This document shows positions 54,353 through 61,954 of a DNA stretch of 64,000 nucleotides, piece after piece (position 1 is the first letter of the stretch; the number at the start of each line of letters is the position of its first letter). A program made the translations under genes and the position numbers. A model generated the notes under the pieces. That model was not told the origin of the DNA. It did not search any database and worked only from the letters and a program-made list of their open reading frames with translations. The stretch spans positions 124,001 through 188,000 of the forward strand of contig NZ_JAKNTW010000003.1 of NCBI RefSeq assembly GCF_022213955.1. The letters are read 5' to 3'. The stretch comes from Dolomitihabitans soli (GTDB taxonomy: Bacteria > Actinomycetota > Actinomycetes > Streptosporangiales > Streptosporangiaceae).

Positions 54353-55114
54353 TCAACGATGGATGCCGCCGTGGCGGTCGATGGAACGCAGCAGAGCGCC
54401 GGTGGTGGCGCCGCGTTCGCCCAGGTCGGCCAGCCACGATTGCACGACGCGGACCGGGCAGGTCTCCGGGTGAGAGCCGTGCGGGATGGCGACGGTCTCG
54501 CCGTGCGCGTCCTGGTCGGTCTTGCTGACGGGGATGTAGACCTCGAGGCCGTCGGGGGTGAAGGTGAGATCGCCGATGTCGCAGGCGACGAGTTCGGAGC
54601 GGCGGCCCATCAGGGCGAAGCCGAGGACCAGGACGGCTCGGTCGCGCAGGCCGGTGGCGCCGGTGGCGGGTAGGGCGGAGATCATGGCGCGCAGCCGGTC
54701 GATGGTGATGGGCGGTGACTTGCGGGTGCGGTGGCCCTGCTGGGCGCGGTCGCGGCGGTAGGCACGCAGCGCCAGGCGGGCCTGTTAGGTGGCGGGCTTG
54801 CCGAGCTGGGCGTGGTCGTGGGCGGCCAGGATGCAGGCCAGTGCCCGGTCGATGGAGGCCGGCGCGTACGCACCGGCGGCCAGGTGGGCGATGTAGTTGG
54901 CCAGCGTCTCGGCGCTGGCGGGCAAGAGCGCGAGCCCGCGCTCATCACACCAGGCGCCGTAGGCCGCCCAGTCGCAGGCGTAGGCCAGCCGGGTGTTCGC
55001 CGCGAGGCCGCGCCCGACCAGCAGGGCGGCCTCGTCGGTGAGGCCTCGGTCCGGGGTTCCGGCTTCCAGCGTGGTCGCGGATCGCCGAAGAGCGACCTCA
55101 CCTCTGTTGATCAT
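54353..55114 (-). pseudogene. Tyrosine integrase gene with internal stop and missing catalytic end
   Basis: From ATG 55114 the frame gives the SAM-like core-binding domain (AANTRLAYACDWAAYGAWCD, SIDRALACILAAHDHAQLG), then a TAA stop at 54785. The same frame continues after the stop with RLALRAYRRDRAQQGHRTRK and LVLGFALMGRRSELVACDIG, which holds the first catalytic Arg. It ends LLRSIDRHGG at 54353, before the HxxR and Tyr motifs. Both the nonsense codon and the truncation make it inactive. Confidence 0.8.
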
Positions 55115-55153
55115 GGGATACGGTTCTCCGCCCCTGCCCCCTGGCTGTCGACA

Positions 55154-55837
55154 ATGCAGATCATCGCTAACCAGACGCGCCCGGCCGCCGCTGCCTGGAA
55201 TCGGGTGCCGGCGAGCCTCGCCCCAGTCGACCCGACATCTCATGGCCAACGTCGGGACACCAGTGATCCAGGCTTGGTCAGCGCTTGTAAGGGGCAGAAG
55301 CATTACTCGGGCACATACTGGTCGGCCACTCAATGCGACCATGTGATCTACGAATCTCGCCTTGAGCTGGCCCGGCTTCTGTTCGCCGACTTCGATACCT
55401 CCGTCCTGGGCATCATCGCCCAGCCTTTCCTTCTTACAGTCACGCTCGACGGCACGGCCCTCAGGCATGTTCCCGACTTCCTGCTGCTGACTACGACCGG
55501 TCCAGCGATCGTTGACGTCAAGCCCGCCCACCGTGTGACGACGCCGAAAGTGGCCGTCACCTTCGCCTGGACCCGGCAAGTGGTCGAATCCCGCGGCTGG
55601 CGCTACGAGGTCTGGAGCGAGCCTCCGACCAGCCAGTTGGAGAACATCCGCTTGCTCGCCGGGTATCGGCGCCCCTGGCTGTTCGACCAGCACCTGATGA
55701 ATGCACTGATGAGCGAACCGTTCGACGGCGTGAGCCTGACTGACGTGATTTCCAGCCAGCCTCGATGGCCATCGCCGTCGCTGGCCACCGCGGCGCGCGC
55801 GGCGATGGCGCCGCGCACGACCGGCACCGCGAGATGA
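55154..55837 (+). CDS. TnsA-like endonuclease of a Tn7-type transposition module
   Basis: The 227-residue protein starts at ATG 55154. It reads SGTYWSATQCDHVIYESRLE, then HVPDFLLLTTTGPAIVDVKP and TRQVVESRGWRYEVWSEPP. This is the TnsA_N nuclease pattern: Glu, then Asp, then Asp-x-Lys in VDVKP. TnsA cuts the 5' ends of heteromeric transposons and needs TnsB, TnsC/TniB and TniQ. None of those follow; instead short unidentifiable sequence (55838-56194) precedes the peptide-modification cluster. Confidence 0.7.
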   Translation: MQIIANQTRPAAAAWNRVPASLAPVDPTSHGQRRDTSDPGLVSACKGQKHYSGTYWSATQCDHVIYESRLELARLLFADFDTSVLGIIAQPFLLTVTLDGTALRHVPDFLLLTTTGPAIVDVKPAHRVTTPKVAVTFAWTRQVVESRGWRYEVWSEPPTSQLENIRLLAGYRRPWLFDQHLMNALMSEPFDGVSLTDVISSQPRWPSPSLATAARAAMAPRTTGTAR

Positions 55838-56194: not shown

Positions 56195-56827
56195 TCAGGG
56201 AGTCAGGAAGCCGGTGATGGAGCGCCGAAGGTTGTCGCCCGCGCCCGCCTCCACCTTCCTCACCCGGTGGAACGTGCCGGCCACCATCACCACGAGCCGG
56301 TTCGGCCGGGGCGCGATGGACGTGGCCGGCACGGGAGCGTTCATCAGGTCCTTGGGGACGTCGAACTCGGCACACGGCACCTCGCCGACCGGGCAGTCGA
56401 ACAGCTCCAGCTCGCCGCCCCACGTCGCCCGCCACTCGCCCGACAGGTAGAGCGTGTACGCCGCCCCCCGGCCGCTCCCGTCGTCGTGCCAGTCCAGCCC
56501 AGACCCCCGGCCGTACCGCCAGAACTTGAACCGGTCGTTGTCCGCCGCCGTCACGCCGAGCGCGTCGAGGCCCCTCCTGACGGCCGACGTCACCTCTCCG
56601 GCGTGCTCCTCGCCGGCTTTCGCGGAGGCGTACGACGCGTCGGCGTAGAACGCCACTCCGTCGAACATCGGATCGACCGAGCTGAAGGTGGGCCGGTGCT
56701 GCACGGCCCGCTCCTCCTCCCGCCAGGCGGCCAGGGCGTCCGGGGACAGGGCGTTGTCGACCACCACGAACCGCCGCCCCTGTACGAAGGTCACGGCCTC
56801 GGCGGTCCGTCCGTCATGAGCTGCCAC
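56195..56827 (-). CDS. 2OG-Fe(II) dioxygenase, last gene of the putative RiPP cluster
   Basis: The 210-residue protein starts at GTG 56827, seven bases after GGAGG, and overlaps the exporter gene's end by 37 bases. Iron ligands are His114 and Asp116 (LDWHDDGSGRG) and His187 (MVAGTFHRVRKV); Arg201/202 (NLRRSITGF) would bind 2-oxoglutarate. The fold is that of prolyl-4-hydroxylase-like oxygenases. It probably hydroxylates a side chain in the precursor peptide or product; the residue is unknown. Its end position and coupling tie it to the five-gene unit. Confidence 0.8.
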   Translation of the reverse strand: MAAHDGRTAEAVTFVQGRRFVVVDNALSPDALAAWREEERAVQHRPTFSSVDPMFDGVAFYADASYASAKAGEEHAGEVTSAVRRGLDALGVTAADNDRFKFWRYGRGSGLDWHDDGSGRGAAYTLYLSGEWRATWGGELELFDCPVGEVPCAEFDVPKDLMNAPVPATSIAPRPNRLVVMVAGTFHRVRKVEAGAGDNLRRSITGFLTP

Positions 56828-58206
56828 GCTCGCGCCTCCTGATCTCCTTGGACATGGCCTTCCGCCTCGCCTTCTCGGCCGCCCTCGCGACCGGATCCCG
56901 GGGAGGTCGACGAGGGCACCCCCTGCCACGCCGAGTCACCGGCGCCGTCCTCAAGAGCGCGGTCCCGCAGCCCCGAACGCGGGACCGCCCAGACGAGCAC
57001 CGCCGCCGCCGTGGCGACGATGACGGCCGCCAGCCCGGCCAGGTACGCCGTCCGGCCCACCAGGTTCGCGAGCGGCAGCGCGATCACGAAGCCCAGCGGC
57101 ACCATCGCCGTGGTCATGGTCGTCTCGAACGATCCGACCCGCGACAACATCGGCTTGGGGACCGTGAGCTGCACGAGGGTGTCGAAGACGACCCCGGCGA
57201 CCCCCGCCGCCAGAGCCGCCAGGAACAGGGCGCCCGCGACCACGACCAGATGCCGGCCGTACGCGAGAGCCAGGAGCTGCACCGGCATCGAGACGACCAG
57301 CAGGGCGACGGTGAGCACCCCGCGCCACTCGACGCGCACGTGCCCGCTCACCAGCGCTCCCAACAGCCCGCCCGCGGCCAGGAACGTCACGATGACGCCC
57401 CACTGCTCGATGCTCCCGAACCTGTCCTGCACGGTGATCGGTCCGAGCACGCTCACCGAGGCCAGCCCGACCTGCACCGGAACCCAGACGAGGATCGCGC
57501 CCAGGACCAGCGGCAGGCGGGGCATGACGCGCACCGCGTCGAGGAACCGCACGCGCTCCCCCGCGCCGCCGTCATCGTCCTCGGCGGGTCCGCGCTCCGG
57601 CGGCCGGGCCCGGATCAGCCGCCTCAGCCAGGCGAGCGAGACGAGGGAGACGACGAAGGTGGCGGCGTCGAAGAAGAGCGCCAGCGGCACGCCTCCCACC
57701 ACCACCAGCAGCGACGCGAGCGCGGGCCCGGCCAGCCGTCCGGTGTCCCCGGCGACGTCGAGCCAGGAGTTGGCCTTCTGCAGCTGGGCGGGGCGGACCA
57801 GCTCGGGGAGCAGCCCGACGGCGCCCGGCGTGAAGAAGGCCGTCGCCGCGCCATAGACGGCCGCGGACACGACGAGGTGCCAGAGCTCCGGGTGCCCGAG
57901 GGCGAAGGTGATCGCCGGGAACACCTGGGCGGCCAGGCGGACGGCGTCCGCGCCGAACATGACCGGCAACCGCCCGACCCGGTCCGGCAGGCTGCCTCCG
58001 TACGCGATGAAGACGAACCTCGCCAGCCACAGGGCCAGCAGCACCATCGGGATGCCCCGCCCGTCGGGCGCGACGGCCAGGGCGGCGAACGCGAAGGTGA
58101 CCGAGACGACCCCGTCCCCCAGCTGTGAGACCGCCTGCCCCGCCAGGTAGACCCTGTAGAGCGGCGACGACAGGGGCGAGCCGGGTACGGCGGGAGCGTC
58201 GGTCAT
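56791..58206 (-). CDS. MFS transporter, probable exporter of the cluster product
   Basis: The 471-residue protein starts at ATG 58206, overlapping the arginase gene's stop (ATGA). Twelve hydrophobic segments are visible. It opens SPLYRVYLAGQAVSQLGDGV and carries GGSLPDRVGRLPVMF between helices 2 and 3, as in the MFS-3 (enterobactin exporter-like) group. It ends in a highly charged ~50-residue tail. Its position suggests that it exports the modified peptide and protects the producer. Confidence 0.85.
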   Translation of the reverse strand: MTDAPAVPGSPLSSPLYRVYLAGQAVSQLGDGVVSVTFAFAALAVAPDGRGIPMVLLALWLARFVFIAYGGSLPDRVGRLPVMFGADAVRLAAQVFPAITFALGHPELWHLVVSAAVYGAATAFFTPGAVGLLPELVRPAQLQKANSWLDVAGDTGRLAGPALASLLVVVGGVPLALFFDAATFVVSLVSLAWLRRLIRARPPERGPAEDDDGGAGERVRFLDAVRVMPRLPLVLGAILVWVPVQVGLASVSVLGPITVQDRFGSIEQWGVIVTFLAAGGLLGALVSGHVRVEWRGVLTVALLVVSMPVQLLALAYGRHLVVVAGALFLAALAAGVAGVVFDTLVQLTVPKPMLSRVGSFETTMTTAMVPLGFVIALPLANLVGRTAYLAGLAAVIVATAAAVLVWAVPRSGLRDRALEDGAGDSAWQGVPSSTSPGSGREGGREGEAEGHVQGDQEARAWQLMTDGPPRP

Positions 58207-59429
58207 GCGTCTTCTCCGGCGAAATTGGTCACCGGCGAGCCCCGCCCTACCACCCGCTCCACCACCTGCCCCGCCTCCGCGAGCTGGACGGTCTCCACGA
58301 GATCGGCCAGATGGGCGGCCGTCAGGTGGCGGCCGGACGGGGAGGGGCACGCCTCCACCAGGTCGCTCGCGACCAAGCGGCCCGCTGCGGCGACGCTCCG
58401 TACCAGGGCCGTCAGAGTCGCGGGGTCGAGACCGCCGCCGGCGGGATAGACGACATCGGGAGCGTACGCCGGGTCCAGCACGTCGATGTCCACCGTGAGG
58501 TGCACGGGCGCGCCGGCGCAGAACCGCGCGATCGTGTCCGCCGCCTCCGGCGCGCGGGCCTCGTCGGCCGTCAGGTAGGAGACGCGCCCGTTCGTGGCCT
58601 GGTCCAGGTTCGTGTCGACGCCGCGCACGCCGATGGTGAGCCATTCGACGTGGGGATGCTCGGAGAGCACCCAGCTGACGAAGTTCCCGCAGTCCGCGGT
58701 GACCGCGTTCCCGGCCGGGCGGCGGTCGGCGTGCGCGTCGAAGTGGACGACGCGCAGCGCCGGATGCCTGCCCGCGACCGCGCTGATCACCGGGTAGCCG
58801 ATCGAGTGGTCCCCGCCGATCACCAGAGGCCGGTGGCCCTGCGCCAGGACGGTGCCGACGAGGGCCCGCAGCCGCTCGTGGGCCGCCGCCCCCGTGTCGG
58901 TCTGCGGATGGACCGCGAGGTCACCGTGATCCACGAGGCCGGGCAGTCCCTCGGCCGGCCGGGCCCGCAGCGTCCACGACCAGGTGCCCGGCTGGGCCAG
59001 AAGCCGGAACCTGCCCGCGAGGGCCTGACGGATCACGGGGACGGCGTCCTTGGGCCGGGGGCCGGGAGGGCTTCCCAGGTCCACCGGCGCTCCGATCAGT
59101 CCCCATACGGCCGCGGCGGCCCTGGTGCCCGCGGGCAGGGACAGCGGGGTCCCGGCCGTCCGCGCGAGCCCGCCGGTCGCCGCCGCCGAGGCGTCCGGCG
59201 GCACGATCAGGCGGATCCTGCGCAGGGCCTTTTCCGCCTCCTTAGTGAGCCGAACCGCTGGCGCGCCGTCACGGCGTTCCCCCAGCTCCCACAGCTCTCG
59301 CAGGGGCGGGGTCAGGGTGAGCCGCGTGCCCTCGGCCTCGTTGACGAGGTCGCCGCCCTGGATCCGGAACGCCGGGTTGAGGACCCACGGGGCCCCGGAC
59401 TGGTCCACGCTCGTCATGGCGAGGCTCAC
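58203..59429 (-). CDS. Arginase/agmatinase-family protein with extra N-terminal domain (candidate peptide arginase)
   Basis: The 408-residue protein starts at GTG 59429 within the preceding stop (GTGA); ATG 59417 is possible. Residues ~110-395 carry the ureohydrolase metal site: GGDHS (205-209), FDAHAD (230-235) and DIDVLD (314-319). Before it lies a ~100-residue domain (WVLNPAFRIQGGDLVNEAEG...) that free-arginine enzymes lack and that resembles a PqqD-like or winged peptide-binding domain. Peptide arginases such as OspR turn Arg into ornithine inside RiPP precursors; the neighbours make that role likely here. Confidence 0.8.
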   Translation of the reverse strand: MSLAMTSVDQSGAPWVLNPAFRIQGGDLVNEAEGTRLTLTPPLRELWELGERRDGAPAVRLTKEAEKALRRIRLIVPPDASAAATGGLARTAGTPLSLPAGTRAAAAVWGLIGAPVDLGSPPGPRPKDAVPVIRQALAGRFRLLAQPGTWSWTLRARPAEGLPGLVDHGDLAVHPQTDTGAAAHERLRALVGTVLAQGHRPLVIGGDHSIGYPVISAVAGRHPALRVVHFDAHADRRPAGNAVTADCGNFVSWVLSEHPHVEWLTIGVRGVDTNLDQATNGRVSYLTADEARAPEAADTIARFCAGAPVHLTVDIDVLDPAYAPDVVYPAGGGLDPATLTALVRSVAAAGRLVASDLVEACPSPSGRHLTAAHLADLVETVQLAEAGQVVERVVGRGSPVTNFAGEDA

Positions 59430-60526
59430 CGGGCCTGCTCGACCAGGAGAAGCCCGGCGCGGACCAGCGAGTCAAGCGCCTGGTCGATCTCCGCGTCGGT
59501 CAGGGCGATGCCCGCCGTGTCATCGCGCAGCGTGGTTCGCCCCGCCGACCACTCGTTCATCCAGGGTGCGAGACGGCCGTCGATCCTGAGCCGCACGCCG
59601 AGGCTCTCGATCGCCATCAGGCCGTCCCCGGCCTCGACCAGCGGCGGGAACCGGGCCGCCCACCTGAGCCGGGTACCGGTGTACGGGACGCTCTCCACCG
59701 ACCACGGCAGCGACAGGCCCTCGCGCCTTTCGAGCGACTGCGCGGAACGCACCTCCCGCGCCCGGTGCACGTCCGAGGCCAGGGCGGTCATGAGGGAGTC
59801 GAGCTCGCCGCCGTCATCGGGCGTCCCCTCGGTCCTGGGCCGGTTGGACCAGGCGTCCAGCGCGGTCCGCGCGAGGTCCTCGGGGGTGGACGCGTGCAGG
59901 CCGAAGGTCCAGTGCAGGCTCGGCCCGATGCCGGTGGCCTCGTGGTCCCATCCCCGGGGGATGTGCCACACGTCGCCGGCGTGCATGTCCGCCTCCTCGA
60001 TCAGCCGCGCGCCGGGCCCGGAGCCCTCCCAGATCCGCCAGCGCTTGCTGCCCTCCGCCTGGAAGATCACCGTGGCGTGGCCGTCCGCGTGGCGGCCGAA
60101 CGCTGACTGCGTCGTCCAGCAGGCGTAGCAGTTCACCCAGGCCGGGTCGTCGGCGAAGTACTCGAACTCCTCCCGCAGGCGAGCAGGGCCCACGTGGATG
60201 CGGTCGGCCCTGTTGGCGACGAGGGTCGCGCCGGAGCGGAGGTACTCGACCATGGCGCCGTAACGCCAGTTGCGGTGCACGATGTCGCCGCCGTCGATCC
60301 GCGTGCTGATGTAGGTGCCGGGATAGGCCATGGGTTCGGACGACAAGCGGATCATCAGCGGTTCGATCGTGGTCGTCCTCATGATGTGGTCGATGACGCC
60401 CCATCCGAGCGACGCGCGCCACGATCCCTGCGGGACCCGGCCGGCCAGAAGCTCGTTCCCGAACGACTTGCGCCAGACGGACTCCCCGCCGAGCGCGTCG
60501 ACGATGTTCTCCCACGACAGTGTCAT
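59426..60526 (-). CDS. JmjC/cupin-fold Fe(II) oxygenase with C-terminal winged-helix-like tail
   Basis: The 366-residue protein starts at ATG 60526 within the preceding stop (ATGA). The cupin core has the metal triad His146/Asp148 (GRHADGHATVIF) and His195 (IPRGWDHEATG), with Lys161 placed to bind 2-oxoglutarate. It is thus a candidate peptide hydroxylase of the ROXY/JmjC type. The last ~70 residues (TDAEIDQALDSLVRAGLLL) look like a small winged helix that could grip a leader peptide. One of two such proteins in the cluster; not close copies. Confidence 0.8.
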   Translation of the reverse strand: MTLSWENIVDALGGESVWRKSFGNELLAGRVPQGSWRASLGWGVIDHIMRTTTIEPLMIRLSSEPMAYPGTYISTRIDGGDIVHRNWRYGAMVEYLRSGATLVANRADRIHVGPARLREEFEYFADDPAWVNCYACWTTQSAFGRHADGHATVIFQAEGSKRWRIWEGSGPGARLIEEADMHAGDVWHIPRGWDHEATGIGPSLHWTFGLHASTPEDLARTALDAWSNRPRTEGTPDDGGELDSLMTALASDVHRAREVRSAQSLERREGLSLPWSVESVPYTGTRLRWAARFPPLVEAGDGLMAIESLGVRLRIDGRLAPWMNEWSAGRTTLRDDTAGIALTDAEIDQALDSLVRAGLLLVEQAR

Positions 60527-61686
60527 GACTGTGTCCCAACGCTCCGAAGGACGCCCACGCGGACCAGGGCCCGCACAGCGGCTCGCAGCTCTGGCGTGGT
60601 GGCCGCGTCGCGCAGCTCGTCGGCGCCGACGAGGGCGCCGGGCTTCAGCAGGCGGGCCAGCTCACCGAGATCGACGGAGAGCTCTCTTCCCAGGGCGAAG
60701 ACGCTGTGGTCGGCGATCACGACCGGCAGGCGGGTGACTGTATAGGGTGGACCTTGATCGCTGGTTCTGCCGGGGAACCGGGGCGGCGAGCCGTACCCGC
60801 ACGACCGGCGGAGCATCGCCTGCCGCCGCACGGCCCGCTCGACGCCGTCGTCGCCGAGGGCGTCCCGGAAGGCGTCGATCGCGCCGGCGACCGGATCCCC
60901 GTCGGCCTGTTCCGGGTGCTGGGCGTTCCGGCGGCGCATCTGGTGGAACAGCGCGTCCGTGGCGGTCTGCCCGGGATCTTCCGGATACACCGTGAGCCCC
61001 AGGAACAGCGACGGGCCGTCATTGCGGAAGAGGTGGTACATCCCCGCGGGGATCAGCAGGAAGTCACCGGGCGCGAGGCGGACGCTGTCCGCCGACGGCA
61101 GAAGAGGCTCCGCGTCCAGCGTGTGCGGGCGCCCCTGGCCGAATGCTGGCAGGCTCAGCCCTGGCCAGGTCCACGCCGTCTTCGCCGCCGGGCCGAGGTG
61201 GAAGATGAAGGAGGGCTCCGGGTCGGTGTGCACGCCGAACGGGGTGGTGCCGGAACTGGCCACGAAGCAGTACCAGTCCACCCCTCTCGTCAGCGGAACG
61301 CCCGCCGATTCGAGCGGGAGGACGAAGCCGGTGTAGAGAAGCTCGGCGAGCTCGGCGTCCCAGGAGTCCAGGCCGTTGATCGCCAGGCAGATGTCGTCCT
61401 TTCCGGTGCGGGCGGAAAGCCAGGAATGTACCGCGGACCGCCCGGAAAACGCCCCCGATACCAGTTTTTCCGAGGCGTCATAGTCGAGGCAGGTGTCACG
61501 GAACGCTCTCATGGCGGGCAGATCCGTGTCGTCGCCGTCCACTCTGGTGGTGGCGGCCCGGAGAGCGCCGAGAACGAGCTCCGCGAGAACGTCCGGTTCG
61601 CGGATCAGGCCGGGAATGTGCACGCGTTCGGCGAAATGCAGCCCGTCCCGCTCGCAGAGTTTCCGCCAGGTGCCTTCGTCCAGCAA
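60523..61686 (-). CDS. JmjC/cupin-fold Fe(II) oxygenase, first modification gene after the precursor
   Basis: The 387-residue protein starts at TTG 61686, eight bases after GGAGG. Metal ligands are His153 and Asp155 (FGVHTDPEPSFIFHLG) and His218 (LIPAGMYHLFRND). As in its neighbour, the C-terminus (LARLLKPGALV, ELRAAVRALVRVGVLRS) forms a small helical, winged-type domain. It probably hydroxylates a precursor residue. A strong hairpin separates it from the peptide gene, and all later genes follow by 4-37 base overlaps. Confidence 0.8.
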   Translation of the reverse strand: MLDEGTWRKLCERDGLHFAERVHIPGLIREPDVLAELVLGALRAATTRVDGDDTDLPAMRAFRDTCLDYDASEKLVSGAFSGRSAVHSWLSARTGKDDICLAINGLDSWDAELAELLYTGFVLPLESAGVPLTRGVDWYCFVASSGTTPFGVHTDPEPSFIFHLGPAAKTAWTWPGLSLPAFGQGRPHTLDAEPLLPSADSVRLAPGDFLLIPAGMYHLFRNDGPSLFLGLTVYPEDPGQTATDALFHQMRRRNAQHPEQADGDPVAGAIDAFRDALGDDGVERAVRRQAMLRRSCGYGSPPRFPGRTSDQGPPYTVTRLPVVIADHSVFALGRELSVDLGELARLLKPGALVGADELRDAATTPELRAAVRALVRVGVLRSVGTQS

Positions 61687-61741
61687 ATCTCAGACCTCCG
61701 GAATCGTGCGGTGAATGGTCCCGTCAAGCCGCCTGACCAGC

Positions 61742-61793
61742 CCGGTGGGCGCGGGAACCCGTCCTGTGCTCAGAGAAGTCCCGCGCCCACCGG
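61742..61793 (-). terminator. Strong hairpin between peptide gene and modification genes
   Basis: The 15-base arms CCGGTGGGCGCGGGA (61742-61756) and TCCCGCGCCCACCGG (61779-61793) pair perfectly around a 22-base loop. It starts nine bases after the precursor's stop and ends about 55 bases before the next start. In RiPP operons such a partial terminator lets most transcripts end after the precursor, so that peptide exceeds enzymes. Confidence 0.75.
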
Positions 61794-61801
61794 CCTGCGG
61801 A

Positions 61802-61954
61802 TCAGTGACCGACGTCCCGCTGCGGCCGCATCCAGAGCTGCCGGTCCTGCAGAGCGGCGACCGACTCCTCCGACACGATGATGTCCGCGATGTCGACGAG
61901 AACGGGGCCCCGCCCTTCGTGCCGGTCGAATTCGTTGTGCGACGTCATTTCCAT
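61802..61954 (-). CDS. Putative RiPP precursor peptide, 50 residues
   Basis: The frame starts at ATG 61954 with AAGGGAAG upstream (ATG 61948 is also possible) and heads the cluster. The first ~35 residues look like a leader: charged start, then VLVDIADIIVSEESV, a hydrophobic/acidic strand-helix typical of leaders bound by winged-helix recognition domains. The C-terminal end, ALQDRQLWMRPQRDVGH, holds Arg38, Arg43 and Arg46 plus Trp, Met and His, plausible targets for the arginase and oxygenases. There is no Cys, Ser or Thr after residue 31, so it is not a lanthipeptide or thiazole precursor. Too short for standard gene callers. Confidence 0.7.
   Translation of the reverse strand: MEMTSHNEFDRHEGRGPVLVDIADIIVSEESVAALQDRQLWMRPQRDVGH

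Follow-up and report, generated by a model that had tools for sequence, protein, structure and literature searches.

The window analysed here is a stretch of 64,000 nucleotides from a Dolomitihabitans soli contig (NZ_JAKNTW010000003.1, positions 124,001 to 188,000), and its positions 56195 to 61954 hold a six-gene block that probably constitutes a pathway for a ribosomally synthesized and post-translationally modified peptide (RiPP). As the first-pass annotation had described, a 50-residue peptide gene is followed by five genes on the same strand; all six were located on the minus strand, as are the other window features of the block given below. The peptide gene (61802..61954; 50 amino acids (aa), ...VLVDIADIIVSEESVAALQDRQLWMRPQRDVGH) was identified from the open reading frame (ORF) listing and by orthologue comparison. 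It is followed by J1 (60523..61686), a cupin/JmjC-type oxygenase of 387 aa with a TTG start, recognized by alignment and by profile comparison with J2; J2 (59426..60526), a JmjC_2 (PF08007) oxygenase of 366 aa whose C-terminal part is possibly winged-helix or RiPP recognition element (RRE)-like; an arginase-family (PF00491) hydrolase of 408 aa with an N-terminal domain of about 100 aa (58203..59429); a major facilitator superfamily (MFS) exporter with 420 conserved aa (56947..58206, the ORF extending to 56791); and a 2-oxoglutarate (2OG)-Fe(II) oxygenase of the PF13640 superfamily, 210 aa, assigned with Pfam (56195..56827). Pfam matches above cut-off among the six proteins were PF13640, MFS_1, PF00491 and PF08007. 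J2 scored 53.2 bits against PF08007 (cut-off 22) and contains HxD...H, and J1 gave only a sub-threshold Cupin_2 match. None of the six is a lanthionine synthetase, YcaO, radical SAM or ATP-grasp gene, bearing out the view that the cluster does not fit a common RiPP class.

The J1/J2, J2/arginase and arginase/MFS junctions are 4-base overlaps. The five genes after the peptide had been described as joined by overlaps of 4 to 37 bases; the peptide gene stands 115 bases from J1 with no overlap. The 37-base overlap of the MFS and oxygenase genes is real and, as judged from the remains between them, is a deletion by-product. In the Nonomuraea zeae cluster (L040) an intact rsgA paralogue lies between these two genes, and blastn and tblastn with the N. 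zeae rsgA detected scraps of such a paralogue in the window (56823..56923) with the remainder of the gene gone. The overlap arises because the MFS frame reads through these scraps into the oxygenase gene, a scar that had been overlooked. The most likely oxygenase start is 56827, in agreement with the L040 and L038 gene calls.

The window peptide is the sole frame ending in D-x-G-[HC] among the 1246 window frames of at least 22 codons. This ending had not been noticed at first pass and was found on comparison with sister loci: exactly one ORF ending in D-x-G-[HC] was present in each of 22 of 22 loci with adjacent J1 and J2 genes. The set comprised eight Nonomuraea-type loci (the window included), five Streptomyces, five enterobacterial and four radical SAM loci, L197-L199 being left out as second copies of L035, L036 and L038. 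Together these loci hold 6247 frames of at least 22 codons, 22 of which carry the ending. In 158 other loci used as controls only two of 14,310 such frames did so (in L102 and L107) and none of the 14,310 ended in D[VT]GH. Five of the 22 loci were opened once the motif was known (L192-L196), and 5/5 had it. The precursor is 100% identical in four loci and 98% identical in L038, with divergent orthologues in L040 and L195, and the length change relative to L040 is an in-frame 27 bp. The 50-aa ORF is thus very likely the precursor, judging from its conservation, and its tracking of J1 and J2 pairs supports the earlier proposals of a RiPP-type cluster with the peptide as likely substrate. Homologous clusters consistently without a small ORF, which had been named as the finding that would speak against a RiPP, were not encountered among these 22 loci.

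The sister clusters, likewise overlooked at first pass, were found when J1 was compared with plasmids by tblastn, which returned linear Streptomyces plasmids and Pantoea/Klebsiella plasmids. The Streptomyces plasmids show the order peptide, J1, J2, MFS, 2OG oxygenase, rsgA without an arginase, and their peptides were recovered from ORFs upstream of J1. The Pantoea/Klebsiella plasmids have the order arginase, J1, J2, (GNAT in 4/5) and MFS, and their peptides correspond to genes annotated as hypothetical that lie immediately upstream of the arginase, on the other strand. The radical SAM sister group (L041 7567-13930, L043 9123-13915, L179 8006-13930 and L196 7221-11450) carries radical SAM, J2, J1 and GNAT genes, with an MFS gene in 3/4, and its precursors are short (22-27 aa where the start is clear) and end in DFGC. 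Streptomyces-type J1 was present on 11 plasmid records, of which L162 and L163 were opened. Seven Streptomyces genomes matched; among them G310 corresponds to L178, an amidinotransferase-type locus, and G993, G910 and G957 gave weak matches. No Pantoea cluster genes were found in E. coli genomes. A FAD-dependent oxidoreductase, a hypothetical protein and an EamA transporter adjoin three Pantoea clusters (L164 3235-5895, L166 1468-4128, L168 1514-4126) and are not annotated beside the Klebsiella (L167) or P. ananatis FDAARGOS_680 (L165) copies. J2-like matches were seen in 112 plasmid records (25 Escherichia, 7 Acinetobacter), of which those adjacent to J1 were opened.

The predicted core RPQRDVGH spans residues 43-50 (61805..61828), as delimited in a column table of the 22 loci, and is numbered back from its end as Arg43 (-7), Pro44 (-6), Asp47 (-3), Val48 (-2), Gly49 (-1) and His50 (0). 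The terminal octet is GPRQDVGH in Streptomyces and RDRRDTGH or RDRSDTGH in enterobacteria, and the radical SAM type ends in ...DFGC. Asp(-3) and Gly(-1) alone are common to all four cluster types; His(0) is invariant in three, with Cys at the end in the radical SAM type. Position -7 is Arg in 13/13 arginase-bearing loci and in 0/9 others, which have Gly, Ser or Val there. Position -6 is Pro and position -2 is Val in 13/13 oxygenase-bearing loci, and neither residue is found there in the nine others. Because of this covariation, Arg43 is the predicted target of the arginase, and Pro44 (or Val48) that of the oxygenase. Arg46 was considered as an arginase target and dropped as less likely, as L193 has Arg at this position without an arginase gene.

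Alignments agreed with the claim that all four enzymes keep their metal-binding residues. The J1 ligands H153/D155/H218 were invariant across Nonomuraea-type, Streptomyces and enterobacterial loci (n=7), the J2 ligands H146/D148/H195 were invariant in seven sequences of which six are near-identical, and the HDD...H...R residues of the 2OG oxygenase are preserved in L040. All six Mn ligands of the arginase are present (H208, D231/H233/D235 and D314/D316; invariant, n=5). The arginase had been taken for an OspR-type enzyme. This identity was rejected, as PF00491 was the sole Pfam match at E <=0.1 and the OspR family is PF12640. Against PDB sequences the arginase matched agmatinases and proclavaminate amidinohydrolase. 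The SHG-type active-site His is absent from the window and L040 arginases (DCGNF) and kept in those of Pantoea and Klebsiella (HANF), and the DCGNF loop resembles TSGTGF of a HutG that scores above its curated cut-off. Conversion of Arg to ornithine by the window arginase is likely on the basis of gene context and covariation, not of the motif. The first-pass proposal of an ornithine in the product is strengthened by the covariation of Arg(-7) with the arginase and weakened by the missing His, and the conversion remains a likely prediction.

The J1 and J2 families are related (hhalign over 273 columns, probability 95.8, E 7e-9). The J2 C-terminus resembled PqqD weakly (E 3e-4, probability 39%; in a second comparison E 1.2e-3, 20%), and the C-termini of J1 and J2 matched each other at E 0.028 and 2% probability with a first sequence set and at E 9.5e-6 and 83% with a broader one. 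The arginase N-terminal domain can be aligned with the corresponding domain of the Pantoea/Klebsiella arginases; among the arginase matches listed other than its own, all start at residue 62 or later except one from residue 12. Searches against PDB sequences gave one J2 match (E 0.007, 30 residues), four weak J1 matches (E at least 0.21) and no oxygenase match up to E 0.1. The profile comparisons are only suggestive of leader-binding (RRE-type) domains in J2, J1 and the arginase N-terminus. A putative leader motif (VDIADIIVSEESVAAL, residues 20-35, 61850..61897) was marked from leader resemblance and likeness by eye. The window leader resembled those of one JmjC-adjacent peptide family (equalled by 2/2000 shuffles) but not those of the other (296/2000) or of the two pooled (332/2000). 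By eye it is like the FEDIVVE/DDVIVEV leaders of sister precursors.

These JmjC-adjacent peptides came from a J2 profile search of 394 genomes of the same class, in which 23 genomes (the window's own included) had a J2-like match. A small peptide lay just upstream of the J2-type gene in 20/20 loci opened (of 26 places outside the window's own), forming two sequence families of which the scanned examples match nothing in Pfam or NCBIfam. These loci (L091-L110) carry PF08007 JmjC genes across Actinomycetes, each with an upstream peptide of MDPIEVEVEDLAEVTSRDITAGGDSDGTDSSSDFI type or VAVEEIAVVRSRAEQPSDGGSTGR type (for example L094 7840-7998, L096 7977-8090 and upstream of L108 6272). Several MDPIEVEVEDLAEVTSRDITAGGDSDGTDSSSDFI-type loci also hold FhuF-like and, in our reading, prolyl-oligopeptidase-like genes, and the MDPIEVEVEDLAEVTSRDITAGGDSDGTDSSSDFI-type loci perhaps encode a hydroxy-Asp metallophore peptide.

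Distribution of the cluster was assessed by scanning one genome per species (84,980 species) for J2, a scan that detects close relatives only and that missed L195, whose J2 is 87% identical. Six loci were found, all Nonomuraea, each with all six genes arranged as in the window, and L195, found later, likewise carries all six. The arginase gene was detected at E 0 in 8/8 Nonomuraea-type loci. Cassette DNA was 98.6-99.6% identical between the window and five of the Nonomuraea copies (lowest pair among these six, 97.7%) and 84.5% identical to the N. zeae copy. Synonymous divergence (dS) of J1, J2 and MFS between the window and the five copies was 0.003-0.033. The rpoB genes of the L035, L036, L039 and L040 hosts were only 85-91% identical to that of the window host, rpoB having been found for 4/6 other hosts and not for those of L037 and L038, and genus labels also differed (g1 for the window host, g4 for genomes matching L035, L036 and L038). 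Flanks of the copies were largely different; about 400 further bases are common to the window and L036 on the oxygenase side, and common sequence extends up to 600 bases past the peptide gene in L035. The near-identical cassette therefore moved recently by horizontal transfer between hosts with divergent rpoB, a mobility that was absent from the first-pass annotation.

Common cassette ends were not found among the copies and a mobilising element was not identified, nor did a search for near DNA matches find the whole cassette in plasmids. Near the window copy (54353-55837) there are a sub-threshold TnsA-like match and an integrase N-terminal domain, pieces that we read as integrase-like lie at window 54353-54685 and L161 12717-13064, and Tn3 transposase and resolvase pieces lie beside the L036 copy (L036 12789-13860). 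Two rpoB-like genes are present in each of the L035, L036, L039 and L040 hosts and the window genome shows one.

The rsgA paralogue is intact in all five opened Streptomyces loci and is found overall in 6/13 oxygenase-bearing loci. The N. zeae and Streptomyces cluster copies are 49% identical to each other and 38-44% identical to the housekeeping-type copies compared. In the window genome and in each of the six Nonomuraea genomes from the scan, at least one further rsgA-like match was seen, with 40-45% identity to the cluster copy (38% for one partial match). PMC9290621 includes rsgA among the translation-related genes that it tabulates for a search for self-resistance. The association hints at a small ribosomal subunit target, although caution is called for, as the gene has been lost from the cassette that is spreading and is lacking in L195.

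What the sequences show directly is the gene content and its conservation, the D-x-G-H/C end of the precursor, the covariation of enzymes with core residues, and the transfer. A RiPP pathway carried on a cassette that moved recently is in our view the probable explanation, and sister blocks with the same peptide ending in unrelated bacteria point to a peptide natural-product family not yet described. In the proposed pathway the leader (around DIIVSEE) would be bound by winged-helix, RRE-like domains of J2 and perhaps of J1 and the arginase N-terminus. The J1-J2 pair occurs in every cluster type and would hydroxylate the C-terminal part that the types share, Asp47 and a neighbour being the most likely sites. 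The arginase would convert Arg43 to ornithine, and the 2OG oxygenase would hydroxylate Pro44 (or Val48). A host protease would then release the C-terminal peptide for export by the MFS protein; this export had been proposed before and is a supported reading. The weakest step is the last, in which the product, most likely an antibiotic, would target the small subunit of the ribosome or its assembly, as suggested by the repeated rsgA neighbour.

Several points weigh against this reading. The 22 loci are not independent, as five are near-copies of the window and 4/5 enterobacterial precursors are near-identical, and the covariation spans four cluster types and so few independent events. Val(-2) matches oxygenase presence as well as Pro(-6) does. 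The ratio of nonsynonymous to synonymous divergence (dN/dS) of the precursor against L040 is only moderately low (0.13/0.32). None of the 20 peptides beside J2-like genes elsewhere ends in D-x-G-H/C. J1-like genes also occur in amidinotransferase/DUF3865 clusters (L042, L169, L171, L172, L178) that have no adjacent J2 and no ORF ending in D[VT]GH; annotations at L169, L171 and L172, on Streptomyces plasmids, are inosamine-phosphate amidinotransferase, DUF3865, fatty acid desaturase, aminoacyl-tRNA ligase-like and TauD-type. The arginase N-terminus matched PqqD at E 0.02 on 26 columns and, in a second comparison, 0.31 on 1 column; the J1 C-terminus gave non-significant values (E 0.49 and 0.53). 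AlphaFold2 models of the arginase (alignment A3) and J1 (A5) were unusable, with a mean predicted local distance difference test (pLDDT) score of 40.3 and 35.3. No protease is encoded among the six genes, L195 has no rsgA and the spreading cassette carries a broken one. The modification chemistry, product and target are predictions from sequence, and the Nonomuraea-type arginase, without the SHG His, may be impaired or act otherwise.

This last point leads to a narrower alternative, a minority possibility that we take seriously, in which the Nonomuraea-type arginase-family protein makes no ornithine, its activity lost or changed, and the product keeps Arg43. The replaced His favours it, and the retention of all six Mn ligands and of the gene itself in every Nonomuraea-type locus argues against it. 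An unlikely alternative for the cluster as a whole treats the peptide as a carrier or scaffold whose C-terminal residues are excised, following PQQ-type logic, to give a very small product: one amino acid, or a hydroxylated peptide of two to four residues. The restriction of residues common to all types to Asp(-3) and Gly(-1) would suit such a scheme, as would an MFS exporter without a dedicated protease gene; however, no ligase or PQQ-type enzyme is encoded among the six genes, and covariation reaches -7, so that at least eight residues appear to matter.

Asp and His are classical hydroxylated siderophore ligands. A RiPP metallophore in which C-terminal beta-hydroxy-Asp and beta-hydroxy-His (with a modified ornithine) chelate iron would account for the invariant Asp(-3) and for His(0), invariant in three types, and a FhuF-like reductase gene adjoins some peptide-JmjC loci elsewhere. 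We consider it improbable, as there is no receptor or importer among the annotated sister-cluster genes (iron boxes were not searched for), the radical SAM type ends in Cys, and the rsgA and GNAT neighbours would seem to suit an antibiotic better. Finally, a small molecule as the enzymes' substrate, with the 50-aa ORF being accidental or regulatory, is very improbable, for although J1-like proteins occur in amidinotransferase clusters that do not look peptide-related, the conserved C-terminus co-occurs in 22/22 loci despite very different leaders and the length change against L040 is in frame.

The RiPP pathway on a mobile cassette can be extended to a broader proposal that we hold only tentatively and think somewhat doubtful: a new family of RiPP antibiotics, modular in make-up and carried on plasmids and cassettes, from Actinomycetes to enterobacteria, in which a fixed JmjC pair would act on a D-x-G-H/C core, interchangeable arginase, prolyl/valyl hydroxylase and radical SAM enzymes would each match one core part, and RsgA or GNAT would provide self-protection, pointing to a small-subunit target. 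The adjacent JmjC pair with a D-x-G-H/C ORF gives a sequence handle for an apparently unnamed RiPP family in distant bacteria, partly plasmid-borne, and residue-level predictions of each enzyme's action follow from the covariation. Should the rsgA link reflect action on the ribosome, the product would be unusual in being a small antibiotic peptide that lacks both cross-links and heterocycles.

YcfD, MINA53 and NO66 are JmjC_2 ribosomal oxygenases, and a C-terminal winged-helix part is found in this family. J2 has PF08007 in common with them, but its operon has a cognate peptide and not a ribosomal protein target. No paper on this cluster was found in searches of openly licensed PubMed Central text. 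The first-pass claim that the cluster is undescribed stands insofar as no described RiPP class was found for it in the literature searched, and overstates the case for the combination, since an arginase, a JmjC ornithine hydroxylase and an MFS protein are known together from the biphenomycins. The available passages of PMC12710340 report RRE-like folds fused to PF08007 with bacterial homologues in RiPP-like contexts, and do not mention a precursor, a core motif or a cluster like the present one. OspR-type (PF12640) enzymes are comparable in the proposed conversion of Arg to ornithine on a precursor and differ in Pfam family. PMC12703449, in the part available, treats the PF12640 peptide arginases and the PF00491 enzyme KgrD of the enteropeptin pathway as distinct. 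By that description KgrD is like the window enzyme in being a PF00491 arginase in a RiPP pathway, but it requires an earlier-formed thiomorpholine, and nothing comparable was seen in the window cluster. Biphenomycin clusters, in the accessible passages of PMC12257519 and PMC12707348, combine an arginase, a JmjC ornithine hydroxylase and an MFS protein, and the JmjC-type enzymes BipG and PbsQ hydroxylate peptidyl ornithine. The likeness of the biphenomycin/pbs system to the window cluster lies in the peptide arginase, a JmjC/cupin hydroxylase on the resulting ornithine, the short precursor and the MFS gene of the bip operon. It also has an MNIO, a B12-radical SAM enzyme, a HExxH hydroxylase and a TldD protease that the window cluster does not have, and its arginase is UPF0489/PF12640 whereas that of the window is PF00491. 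Membership in the biphenomycin family was rejected, as there is no MNIO or radical SAM gene among the six and the core is RPQRDVGH and not FRF. Compared with the biphenomycin clusters, the window cluster is set apart by two JmjC-type genes together with a 2OG oxygenase and by its association with rsgA.

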